Source: Cellulomonas endophytica (GTDB lineage Bacteria > Actinomycetota > Actinomycetes > Actinomycetales > Cellulomonadaceae). Taken from it: a stretch of DNA of 64,000 nt. How positions within the stretch are numbered: the stretch's first letter is position 1; every line of letters begins with the position of its first letter. Shown here piece after piece: positions 20,593-31,788 of this stretch. The position numbers and the translations under genes were made by a program. The notes below the pieces were generated by a model. It did not search any database and was not told where the DNA came from. It was given only the letters and a program-made list of their open reading frames with translations. The stretch is taken from positions 1 through 64,000 of the forward strand of contig NZ_RWJX01000007.1 of the NCBI RefSeq assembly GCF_004123805.1, given 5' to 3'.

Positions 20593-21159
20593 ATGGGCAC
20601 GCTCGTGTACGCGGCCAACGCCTCGCTCGACGGCTACCTCGAGGACGAGGAGGGCCGGTTCGACTGGTCGGAGCCCGACGAGGCCGTGCACGCGTTCTGG
20701 AACGGGCACGAGGAGCGGGTCGGCACCTCGCTCTACGGCCGCCGGATGTACGAGACGATGCGCGTCTGGGAGACCCACGACTGGCTCGCCGACGAGCCGC
20801 AGGTGGTGCGCGACTACGCCGGCATCTGGCGCGACGCCGACAAGGTCGTCTACTCCACGACGCTCGAGAGGGTCACGACCGCCCGCACCCGCCTCGAGCG
20901 CCGCTTCGACCCCGACGCCGTCCGGGCGCTGAAGCAGGGGTCCAGCCGGGAGCTGAGCGTCGGCGGCGCGACGATCGCCGCCGAGGCGTTCCGGCACGGC
21001 CTCGTCGACGAGTGCGTGCTCGTCCTGTGCCCCGTCGTGGTGGGCGGCGGGAAGCCGGCGCTCCCCCGGGGCCTCCGGCTCGACCTGGAGCTGCTCGACG
21101 AGGGGCGCTTCGCCAACGGCTGGGTCCACCTGCGCTACCGCGTGGGGAACGCCCGCTGA
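20593..21159 (+). CDS. Dihydrofolate reductase-like (RibD C-terminal) protein
   Basis: 188 residues, DHFR-superfamily RibD_C type. Signatures are YAANASLDGYLEDEEGRFDW, LYGRRMYETMRVWE and the NADPH-loop SVGGATIAAEAF. It ends LVLCPVVVGGGKPALP. These small reductases are widespread in actinobacteria and usually uncharacterised; a true folate role is unlikely because a canonical DHFR is at 29.6 kb. The ATG at 20593 has a CGGAGGA box at 20581-20587. Confidence 0.85.
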   Translation: MGTLVYAANASLDGYLEDEEGRFDWSEPDEAVHAFWNGHEERVGTSLYGRRMYETMRVWETHDWLADEPQVVRDYAGIWRDADKVVYSTTLERVTTARTRLERRFDPDAVRALKQGSSRELSVGGATIAAEAFRHGLVDECVLVLCPVVVGGGKPALPRGLRLDLELLDEGRFANGWVHLRYRVGNAR

Positions 21160-28742: not shown

Positions 28743-29549
28743 ATGACGGACCGCGTGCCGACGCCGTACGAGGACCTCCTCCGGCTCGTGCTGGAGACGG
28801 GGACGCCGAAGGCGGACCGGACGGGGACGGGGACGCGCAGCCTCTTCGGCCACCAGATCCGCTTCGACCTCGCCCAGGGCTTCCCGCTCGTCACGACGAA
28901 GCGGGTCCACCTGCGCTCGGTCGTCTACGAGCTCCTGTGGTTCCTGCGCGGCGACTCCAACGTCCGCTGGCTCCAGGAGCACGGCGTGAGCATCTGGGAC
29001 GAGTGGGCGGACGCCGACGGCGAGCTCGGGCCGGTCTACGGCGTGCAGTGGCGGTCGTGGCCGACCCCGGACGGCGGCCACGTCGACCAGATCACGCGCG
29101 TGGTGGAGGACCTGCGCCGCGACCCCGACTCCCGGCGGCTCGTCGTGTCCGCCTGGAACGTCGCGGACGTGCCCCGGATGGCGCTGGCGCCCTGCCACGC
29201 GCTCTTCCAGTTCTACGTCGCCGACGGCCGGCTCTCCTGCCAGCTCTACCAGCGCTCGGCGGACATGTTCCTCGGCGTGCCGTTCAACATCGCCTCGTAC
29301 GCCCTCCTCACGCACATGGTCGCGCAGCAGGCGGGGCTCGAGGTCGGCGACTTCGTCTGGACGGGCGGGGACTGCCACGTCTACGACAACCACGTGGACC
29401 AGGTGCGCGAGCAGCTCTCGCGCGAGCCCTTCCGGTACCCCGCCCTGCGGCTGCGGCCGGCCCCGTCGATCCTCGAGTACGCGTTCGAGGACGTCGAGGT
29501 CCTCGACTACCTCCACCACCCGGGCATCAAGGCCCCCGTGGCCGTCTGA
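28743..29549 (+). CDS. thyA: Thymidylate synthase (ThyA)
   Basis: 268 residues, close to the standard length. It methylates dUMP with methylene-tetrahydrofolate, giving dihydrofolate. Signatures are [19 protein letters not shown], the catalytic cysteine in [14 protein letters not shown] and [18 protein letters not shown]. It ends [10 protein letters not shown]. The next gene, starting two bases after the stop, encodes a dihydrofolate reductase that would recycle the product. It has a leaderless-type promoter. Confidence 0.97.
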
Positions 29550-29551
29550 CC

Positions 29552-30862
29552 ATGGGCCTCAAGCTCATCTGGGCCCAGACGCCCGACGGCGTCATCGGCC
29601 TCGACAACGACCTGCCGTGGCGGATCCCCGAGGACCTCGCCCGGTTCCGGCGGCTCACCTCCGGGCACCCCGTCGTCATGGGCCGGCGCACCTGGGAGTC
29701 GCTGCCCGAGATCTACCGGCCGCTGCCCGGACGCGACAACGTCGTGCTCACGCACGACCGCGGCTACGACGCCCCCGGGGCGGTCGTCGCGACGAGCCTC
29801 GACGACGCGCTCGCGGTCGTCGGCGACCGCGACGCCTGGGTCATCGGCGGCGGCACGCTCTACGCGGACGCGCTGACGCACGCCGACACCGTCGAGGTGA
29901 CGATCGTCGACCGGGCCACGGTGGGGGACACCTTCGCCCCCGTGCTCGACGAGCGGCGCTGGGTGCAGACGGCCCACGAGCCGGCCGAGGGCTGGTACTC
30001 CTCCGTCACGGAGGGCACCCGCTACCGCTTCATCACCTACGGCCACCGGCCGCAGTCGCAGCCGGCCGTCGACCCGCGCCTGCAGGCCCCGCACGCGGTG
30101 CGCTGCGACTGGGGCCGGGCCGGCGCGCGCGCCGTGGCGGCCGGGTCCGACCGGATCGCCGTCGTCGTCGACGTGCTGACGTTCACGACGACGGTGGCCG
30201 CGGCCTGCGCCGCGGGCATCGAGGTGGCGCCCTTCCGCTGGCACGACCCCCGCGCCGCCGGGTACGCCGAGCGGGAGAGCGCGGTGCTCGCGGGGTCGCG
30301 CTCGACGGGCGGGCCCAGCCTGTCCCCGGGGTCCGTGCGCGCGTCGGGGCTCTCGCGTCTCGTCCTGCCCTCGCCGAACGGCGCCACCACGGCGCTGACC
30401 ATCGCCGCCACGGGCGCGGAGGTCGTGGCGGGGAGCATCCGCAACGCCGACGCCGTCGCCCGGTGGTGCGCCGCCCGGCTGGCGACGGACCCGCACCTCG
30501 TCGTCGGGGTCGTGCCGGCGGGGGAGGGCTGGCCGGACGGCGCCTTCCGCCCGAGCGTCGAGGACCTGTGGGGGGCGGGCGCCGTCATCGAGGCGCTGCG
30601 CCGCCACGGCGTCACCGACCGCTCCGTCGAGGCCGAGGCCGCGCGCCAGGCGTGGCTGGCCGTCGCGGACGACCCGGTGGGGGCGCTGCGGGAGTCGGCG
30701 TCCGGGCGGGAGCTGTCCGAGCGCGGCTGGGCGGACGACGTCGTGGCGGCGGCGGACCTGGACGCCGACGGGGTCGCGCCCGTGCTCGTCGACGGCTGGT
30801 TCCGAGGTCGCACCCCGGAGGCGGCCGGCGCGGCCGGGCCGGGCGGCGGGACGGTAGCCTGA
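29552..30862 (+). CDS. folA: Dihydrofolate reductase fused to a ComB-like (2-phosphosulfolactate phosphatase) domain
   Basis: 436 residues in one uninterrupted frame. Residues 1-163 are a complete type I DHFR: LIWAQTPDGVIGLDNDLPW, catalytic Asp28 in WRIPEDL, MGRRTWESLP and WVIGGGTLYADAL. After a ~20-residue linker, residues 183-420 form a ComB-like domain (RIAVVVDVLTFTTTVAAACAAG, SPNGATTAL, ED-LWGAGAVIEAL). ComB hydrolyses 2-phosphosulfolactate in coenzyme M synthesis, a pathway not expected here, so that half's role is unknown. A GTG at 30098 could start a separate ComB-like protein, but there is no stop between the parts and no Shine-Dalgarno before it. Translation is probably coupled to thyA. 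Confidence 0.88.
   Translation: MGLKLIWAQTPDGVIGLDNDLPWRIPEDLARFRRLTSGHPVVMGRRTWESLPEIYRPLPGRDNVVLTHDRGYDAPGAVVATSLDDALAVVGDRDAWVIGGGTLYADALTHADTVEVTIVDRATVGDTFAPVLDERRWVQTAHEPAEGWYSSVTEGTRYRFITYGHRPQSQPAVDPRLQAPHAVRCDWGRAGARAVAAGSDRIAVVVDVLTFTTTVAAACAAGIEVAPFRWHDPRAAGYAERESAVLAGSRSTGGPSLSPGSVRASGLSRLVLPSPNGATTALTIAATGAEVVAGSIRNADAVARWCAARLATDPHLVVGVVPAGEGWPDGAFRPSVEDLWGAGAVIEALRRHGVTDRSVEAEAARQAWLAVADDPVGALRESASGRELSERGWADDVVAAADLDADGVAPVLVDGWFRGRTPEAAGAAGPGGGTVA
30855..30860 (+). promoter_or_regulatory. -10 element for dapA
   Basis: TAGCCT lies seven bases before the dapA ATG and overlaps the stop codon of the preceding fusion gene. dapA may therefore have its own leaderless transcript inside the operon. 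Confidence 0.5.
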
Positions 30863-30867
30863 CGCCC

Positions 30868-31788
30868 ATGCCTCCCGTCGCCACCCCCGGGCGGCCCTTC
30901 GGGGCCGTGCTCACCGCCATGGTGACCCCGATGCACGCCGACGGCTCCCTCGACCTGGCGTCGGCGGTCGCGCTCGCGCGGCACCTCGTCGACGAGGGGA
31001 ACGACGGGCTGGTGCTCAACGGCACCACCGGCGAGGCGCCCACCACGCACGCGCCGGAGAAGGCCGACCTCGTCGCCGCCGTCGTCGAGGCGGTCGGCGA
31101 CCGCGCCTGGGTCGTCGCCGGGGCGGGCTCGAACGACACCCTGCACGCCGCCCGCATGGCCGAACAGGCGGCGGCCGCCGGGGCGCACGGCCTGCTGGTG
31201 GTGTCCCCGTACTACTCCCGCCCCTCCCAGGCGGGGATCGTCGCCCACGTGGAGGCGGTCGCGGACGCGGGGGGTGGCCTGCCCGTCATGCTCTACGACG
31301 TCCCCGGGCGCACCGGCGTCCGGCTCGCGCCCGCGACCGTCGACCACCTGGCCGGCCACCCCGCGGTCGTCGCCGTCAAGGACGCGACCGGGGACGTGCT
31401 CGCCGCGGCCGCCGCCATCCAGCGCACCGGCCTGGCCTGGTACTCCGGCGACGACGGGCTCTACCTCTCCCTGCTCGCCCACGGCGGCGTCGGCATCGTC
31501 TCCGTCGTGGGGCACGTCGCCTCCCGCGGGCTGGCGCAGCTGACCCGCTGCTGGGACGCGGGCGACACCGCGGGCGCCCTCGCCGCGTTCCGGGCCGTCA
31601 TGCCCGCCGTGGTGGCGCTCAACGGCGCCGGCTTCCAGGCCGTCGCCTCCAAGGCCGCGCTCGAGGTCCTCGGCCGCCTGCCGAACCGCGTGCTGCGCCT
31701 GCCGTACCTGCCGGCGACCGAGGAGGAGGTGGCCGCCGTCCGTGACGGGCTGCGGGCCGCCGGGCTCCTGGAGCCGGTCGTCTCCTGA
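30868..31788 (+). CDS. dapA: 4-hydroxy-tetrahydrodipicolinate synthase
   Basis: 306 residues. It condenses pyruvate and aspartate semialdehyde, the first committed lysine/diaminopimelate step. Visible are LNGTTGEAPTT, YYSRPSQAGI, MLYDVPGRTG (Tyr of the proton relay) and the Schiff-base lysine in VVAVKDATGD near residue 170. dapB and dapF are elsewhere in the window. It is followed after 67 bases by rnj, a conserved dapA-rnj pairing in actinobacteria. Confidence 0.96.
   Translation: MPPVATPGRPFGAVLTAMVTPMHADGSLDLASAVALARHLVDEGNDGLVLNGTTGEAPTTHAPEKADLVAAVVEAVGDRAWVVAGAGSNDTLHAARMAEQAAAAGAHGLLVVSPYYSRPSQAGIVAHVEAVADAGGGLPVMLYDVPGRTGVRLAPATVDHLAGHPAVVAVKDATGDVLAAAAAIQRTGLAWYSGDDGLYLSLLAHGGVGIVSVVGHVASRGLAQLTRCWDAGDTAGALAAFRAVMPAVVALNGAGFQAVASKAALEVLGRLPNRVLRLPYLPATEEEVAAVRDGLRAAGLLEPVVS

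Follow-up and report, generated by a model that had tools for sequence, protein, structure and literature searches.

Dihydrofolate reductase (DHFR, the product of folA), a core enzyme that also serves as a drug target, is normally a single-domain protein in bacteria. In the DHFR-thymidylate synthase fusions of plants and protists, DHFR forms one half of a two-domain protein. This is also true of the gene described here, which lies in a 64,000-nucleotide stretch of the Cellulomonas endophytica genome (the window), but its partner is not thymidylate synthase, which is encoded by a separate upstream gene. Instead, the DHFR is joined to a domain of the family typified by ComB, the 2-phosphosulfolactate phosphatase. 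What is, by Pfam scores, the only canonical DHFR of six species carries this extra enzyme-like domain, drawn from a family that is annotated as belonging to coenzyme M synthesis but whose named substrate has no known source in these genomes. A search of the open-access literature found no paper that brings together 2-phosphosulfolactate phosphatase, dihydrofolate reductase and a fusion, and none that pairs phosphosulfolactate with dihydrofolate reductase.

The fused gene and its distribution

The window contains a single open frame on the forward strand, running from the ATG at 29552 to the TGA at 30862, which upon translation gives 436 amino acids with no internal stops. A Pfam search of this protein recovered DHFR_1 (PF00186) at residues 3-146 (E 1.5e-45) and 2-ph_phosp (ComB, PF04029) at residues 200-414 (E 9.8e-21). 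An initial annotation had described a DHFR and a ComB-like domain that follow each other across a short linker without an intervening stop; the open frame and the Pfam matches confirm this, and the folA::comB-like fusion is real and in frame. The limits it had drawn for the two parts (DHFR 1-163, ComB-like 183-420) are about right, and the neighborhood of thyA and dapA that it names is borne out by the ORF calls: the thyA stop lies 2 bases ahead of the fusion ATG and the dapA start, at 30868, 5 bases past the fusion stop. The features of the locus are as follows:

28743 to 29549, forward strand: thyA, thymidylate synthase-like, 268 amino acids (ORF call and sequence; homologues a short way upstream of folA in most compared loci)
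29552 to 30862, forward strand: the folA::comB-like fusion gene, 436 amino acids (matched over its full length in 6 of the 81 Cellulomonas genomes)
29558 to 29989, forward strand: DHFR domain, PF00186, residues 3-146 (Pfam; predicted structure mostly confident)
30041 to 30097, forward strand: linker, residues 164-182, 19 residues with DPRLQAP invariant in the six copies (alignment; equal length in all six)
30098 to 30805, forward strand: ComB-like phosphatase-family domain, residues 183-418, with PF04029 at 200-414 (Pfam and alignments)
30806 to 30859, forward strand: C-terminal tail, residues 419-436, exceeding that of the other five copies (alignment)
30868 to 31788, forward strand: dapA, the next gene 3' of the fusion (ORF call and locus comparison)

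The complete fusion protein has one match in the window's own genome, and full-length copies are present in 6 of 81 Cellulomonas genomes, namely that of the window and those that we designate G070, G061, G012, G088 and G082, which are 85%, 76%, 75%, 76% and 70% identical to the window copy. The six copies align without gaps across residues 1-418. As regards the survey for DHFR-ComB fusions that the initial annotation had proposed, it yielded these six genus genomes and, with a profile built from the six copies, 6 of 221 family genomes. With this profile, in an order sample of 248 genomes the fusion was seen in the window's own genome only, among the E-value-sorted matches listed, where any further fusion would rank first, and the same was the case in a class sample of 394 genomes; both sets are even samples. 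The class and family searches used strict cut-offs (1e-59 and 1e-75), which a strongly diverged fusion could escape. As far as sampled, the fusion is confined to the genus Cellulomonas. A named scan with two DHFR patterns only returned at least four fusions among its best 80 matches, the carriers among the matches listed being Cellulomonas citrea Ao-9, a Cellulomonas MAG and MAGs labelled Micrococcales and Actinomycetota. The setting is likewise conserved: thyA lies close upstream in five of the six carriers, with two other genes between thyA and folA in G082, and dapA lies 3' of the fusion in five of the six, the contig of G088 stopping short of it.

These occurrences bear on whether the fusion might be an assembly error or a chance readthrough in one genome. 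The stop between the domains that would have undone the initial annotation is absent from the translated DNA of the five other copies, and since these five run through without a stop, a local assembly error is excluded; with the same join in six separate genomes, this explanation is refuted and its probability negligible. The related idea that the fusion is an accident of adjacent genes does not agree with its presence in six species, with the conserved join, or with purifying selection; indeed, a conserved join under selection is found in more than one species.

The DHFR domain scores 155 bits against a Pfam cut-off of 25, and the PED at residues 26-28, whose acid we take to be the active-site acid corresponding to E. 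coli D27, is invariant in the six fusions and 32 aligned rows. In each of the six carriers the fusion is the one PF00186 match above cut-off; the window genome has a further match below it (23.1 of 25 bits). By this measure the fusion is the sole canonical DHFR predicted in the six carriers, with the qualification that G012 and G088 are 89% and 81% complete and a second DHFR gene could be absent from their assemblies. The window also encodes, at 20593-21159, a protein with a RibD_C domain (PF01872), presumably a distant relative of the DHFR fold. As a separate observation, 17 of the 81 Cellulomonas genomes are without a PF00186 match at E 0.001, and 15 of these 17 are at least 90% complete (G009, G062, G017, G068, G069, G028, G081, G083 and G085, and further G001, G086, G089, G091, G092, G094, G097 and G035).

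The ComB-like domain and its relatives

The second domain lies above the Pfam PF04029 cut-off (74 bits against 26.4) and far under the NCBIfam equivalog cut-offs, with 48 of 332 bits for NF010700 and 45 of 175 for TIGR00298. ComA (PF02679) was found in none of eight genomes, comprising the six carriers, of which G012 and G088 are only 89% and 81% complete, and two relatives, while the search controls, B. subtilis and M. jannaschii, were positive. The coenzyme M/sulfolactate pathway was rejected on this account, in agreement with the initial annotation, which had not expected coenzyme M synthesis in this organism. Since ComA was not found in the eight genomes and the canonical motifs are missing from the domain, 'ComB' is best taken from these sequences as the name of a family and not of a function.

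We aligned the six fused domains with 45 standalone ComB-like proteins, five divergent actinobacterial PF04029 rows and stretches of the solved structures 2z0j and 2yyv; 45 of 46 standalone rows could be used, with L148 left out for a stop in its N-terminal extension. By its sequence the second domain is assigned to an actinobacterial subfamily of PF04029. D207, N276, G277, G324, E325, E337 and D338 are invariant in the fused and standalone rows, and D207, T213, S258, P259, N276, G277, G324, E337 and D338 are present in all six fusions and at least 44 of the 45 standalone proteins, most of them being shared with the two solved ComBs. Of 61 positions that are at least 90% conserved in the 45 standalone ComBs, the six fusions all retain 54; for five standalone clades given the same treatment, the corresponding figures are 50/57, 55/64, 55/62, 52/56 and 52/67. 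Retention of the kind seen in standalone clades argues that the fused domain is not decaying. It has neither the DVLRATT nor the LGNSP motif seen in both solved chains: the R of DVLR is replaced by T in the fusions (S in 40 and R in 5 of the 45 standalone proteins), and the GN of LGNSP by SL. Further, N298, an asparagine in 45 of 45 standalone proteins and both solved chains and a valine in the five divergent rows, is kept by two of the fusions and lost from four, and position 326, the R of GER in 39 of 45 standalone proteins, is G in all six. These features suggest that the fused domain has probably remained an enzyme whose pocket has changed, and the substitutions at N298 and R326 could mean altered or lost catalysis.

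Across the 81 Cellulomonas genomes, 23 have a separate comB-like match, 52 have no ComB match and none has both the fused and the separate form; a PF04029 search of the six carriers gave one match each. In the class, PF04029 has a patchy distribution, being found in 37 of 118 genomes, the window included. Relatives of the domain are also present on 41 plasmid records from Actinomycetota and Enterobacterales, with hosts such as Pseudonocardia, Rhodococcus, Pantoea and Rahnella; these matches span no more than 71% of the query and are less than 60% identical to it. All seven plasmid relatives examined, the enterobacterial ones included, carry the subfamily motifs (SF after DV[LM], LSP, PSPNG, RN and GE[RK]W), which indicates that the comB-like gene has moved widely. 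Among viral contigs, 52 pattern hits included no relative.

Twenty standalone loci with flanks of about 7 kb gave no constant partner, and an operon partner as a clue to the substrate was rejected. The commonest neighbor family (8 of 20 loci) lumps together dissimilar ABC ATPases at 0.6-5.8 kb and the next (6 of 20) LacI-like regulators, as judged by eye, and most other families in common come from syntenic close relatives. Genes in the neighboring loci, here and in the other locus comparisons, were called with a simple script whose scores use codon-position G+C; in this set it missed the ComB gene itself in 2 of the 20 loci (L162 and L163). The immediate neighbors differ: the gene lies behind ispE in family f43 (one of three tested), behind an ABC-F-like ATPase gene in family f27 (one tested), and just downstream of a YycE-like gene on a Pantoea plasmid. 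On a Pseudonocardia plasmid (L209:4937-6600), an APH-family kinase gene lies just upstream and overlaps the comB-like gene by 4 bases. No DHFR or thyA hit was obtained in 43 of 44 standalone loci (20 with about 7 kb per side and 24 with at most 1.5 kb). In the remaining locus, a glyoxalase-like gene separates the comB-like gene from a second DHFR copy about 0.6 kb upstream. This locus belongs to G352, an actinobacterium of another family, where L240:6547-8963 comprises, on a single strand, a NUDIX gene overlapping the second DHFR and then a Glyoxalase_6 gene overlapping the comB-like one; this cluster is a single case, found after looking.

The possibility that the domain dephosphorylates a pterin, such as 7,8-dihydroneopterin monophosphate, is best weighed against these loci. 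A 2007 account (PMC1971073) gives dihydroneopterin monophosphate dephosphorylation to an unassigned nonspecific phosphatase, leaving the step without an assigned enzyme as of that year. The G352 arrangement, with a NUDIX-DHFR pair followed by glyoxalase-like and comB-like genes, would be in keeping with such a role. Against it, DHFR catalyzes a step at the opposite end of this pathway, and the 52 genus genomes without a ComB match must still make or obtain folate. The standalone loci, probed for the DHFR and thyA families, speak against it as well: the pterin-linked phosphatase role raised by the initial annotation is conceivable and finds no support in 43 of 44 of them, and we consider it very unlikely. 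The ring-opening role raised alongside has no basis in the families found.

Probable origin and spread within Cellulomonas

The fused ComB domains form one clade in a tree of 51 rows (100/100). In a DHFR tree of 41 rows, whose 33 standalone rows are those with kept loci rather than the whole genus and include two from other families, the six fused proteins group with those of G004 and G084 in one clade (100/100). These two genomes encode a DHFR alone, which ends in a stub resembling the start of the linker, and neither has a PF04029 match. A tree of the flanking genes (thyA, dapA and rnj) groups G004 and G084 with G082, and an OmpA-like gene (family judged by eye) between thyA and folA is common to G004 and G082. 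The same tree places the window and G070 apart from the other carriers. In AU tests, thyA, dapA and rnj together reject a tree that unites all carriers with the stub species (p 0.0009); PNPase, from 29 of 30 genomes as G088 gave no full match, rejects it barely (p 0.047); and two converse groupings are rejected on the evidence of DHFR, with p values of 0.037 and 0.0022. The groups compared in these tests were named after the trees had been seen.

From these trees, the accessory phosphatase gene was most likely fused to folA just once, a mobile comB-like gene having presumably inserted between folA and dapA in an ancestral Cellulomonas. Because the flank and PNPase trees conflict with the DHFR clade, a single transfer of the fused gene between two Cellulomonas lineages is probable, with folA replaced in place in the second. 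The simplest reading of the stub species is that two descendants, G004 and G084, probably lost the phosphatase part and kept a short remnant of the linker; alternatively, an ancestor may have had a DHFR with a tail, with the fusion transferred later into G082.

The folA-dapA junction looks like a frequent place of insertion across species and genera. At L053, L054, L056, L080 and L122 the extra genes there are, by eye, short-chain dehydrogenase-like, a GntR-like regulator with neighbors, and ThyX-like. In G084 (L035 / L165) the 3' end of folA shares a GTGA junction with an overlapping gene for an HD_4-domain protein, which precedes dapA and takes the position that the ComB part has in the fusion. 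With unrelated genes also found there in other species and genera, it may be seen as another insertion at this junction.

Selection and the possible roles of the fusion

We counted dN/dS by the Nei-Gojobori method for the 15 pairs of the six copies, taking DHFR, codons 161-185 and ComB apart. For the three closest copies (G061, G012 and G088), the DHFR values are 0.04-0.07 and the ComB values 0.05-0.08, with 0.09-0.13 in codons 161-185. The twelve more distant pairs give 0.23-0.48 for DHFR and 0.18-0.32 for ComB, along with 0.18-0.82 for codons 161-185, a short and noisy stretch, where values above DHFR come mostly from pairs involving the window or G070. From these ranges, the ComB-like domain is under purifying selection and as firmly held as DHFR, and the linker is constrained, but less evenly than the domains.

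Another matter is whether the gene gives rise to two separate proteins without joint function, by internal initiation at or near the GTG at 30098 or by cleavage of the linker. This GTG encodes V183; it is followed by CGC TGC GAC, all four codons being identical in the six species, and homology to standalone ComBs starts at about this point. Mean synonymous difference over the 15 pairs is 0.37 for codons 161-185, against 0.39 for DHFR and 0.45 for ComB. Being at most slightly lowered, it gives no clear sign of a hidden internal start, which is neither demonstrated nor strictly disproved thereby. The initial annotation had noted that this start is without a Shine-Dalgarno sequence, and by eye the best run is AGG, 11 nt upstream, with nothing more like one; in addition, the linker upstream of the GTG is conserved as protein. 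We regard two products as distinctly unlikely.

Some residues might reflect contact between the halves. Thirteen residues common to the six fused DHFRs occur in at most a quarter of the 33 standalone DHFRs, and one or both stub species retain 11 of the 13, which fits common descent. The other two differ: Y149, which all six fusions have and none of the 33 standalone DHFRs, is replaced by H in each stub species, and E143, found in all six fusions and 4 of the 33, is replaced there by D. In the modelled DHFR these residues lie at a strand end and in the loop leading into the last strand, a segment that we take, by comparison with E. coli DHFR, to be the GH loop. This gives a hint, from two losses only, that the DHFR and ComB-like domains may touch near Y149 and E143 instead of being simply tethered. 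In the AF2 model, the DHFR part is good and the ComB part, for which the alignment has five rows (the window and four other fusions), is mostly below pLDDT 70.

Such contact would suit a ComB-like domain that is mainly non-enzymatic, packing on DHFR to tune or stabilize it. The single length of the linker with its invariant DPRLQAP core, the differences at Y149 and E143 between fused proteins and both stub species, and the loss of N298 in four and R326 in all six fusions are consistent with this proposal. However, the fused domain keeps the 54 of 61 conserved family residues much as standalone clades do, its invariant acidic residues are intact, and two relatives manage without it, which makes the proposal rather unlikely. 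A bolder reading supposes a bifunctional DHFR-phosphatase whose second domain, docked on the loop that precedes the final DHFR strand, controls turnover or product fate; its phosphorylated substrate would be linked to folate or one-carbon metabolism, and the fused gene would spread between species as a unit. This appears decidedly unlikely to us.

The reading that we prefer, with middling confidence, is that the DHFR gene carries an active phosphatase of the ComB family. The cell's only canonical DHFR and a C-terminal ComB-family phosphatase domain would then be made as one polypeptide, in which DHFR probably works as usual. The ComB-like domain would be an active metal-dependent phosphatase, acting on a small phosphorylated metabolite other than 2-phosphosulfolactate, and its tie to DHFR might mainly give it steady co-expression with thyA-folA. 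Within one genus there are fused, separate, absent and truncated states, a natural contrast that allows a direct test of what this orphan phosphatase subfamily does.

Both halves of the protein may finally be set against their closest known counterparts. The second half resembles the ComB 2-phosphosulfolactate phosphatases (2z0j and 2yyv) in matching PF04029 across the domain and in having D207, S258, P259, N276, G277, G324 and D338 in common with both chains. It differs from them in being without the R of DVLR and the GN of LGNSP, in scoring below the equivalog cut-offs, and in occurring where no ComA was found. The first half is like bacterial FolA (PF00186) in comprising a complete domain and in the thyA-folA-dapA setting of most compared loci of the genus. 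In contrast, it bears a C-terminal phosphatase-family domain, whereas the translated standalone folA genes of the genus end soon after residue 163.
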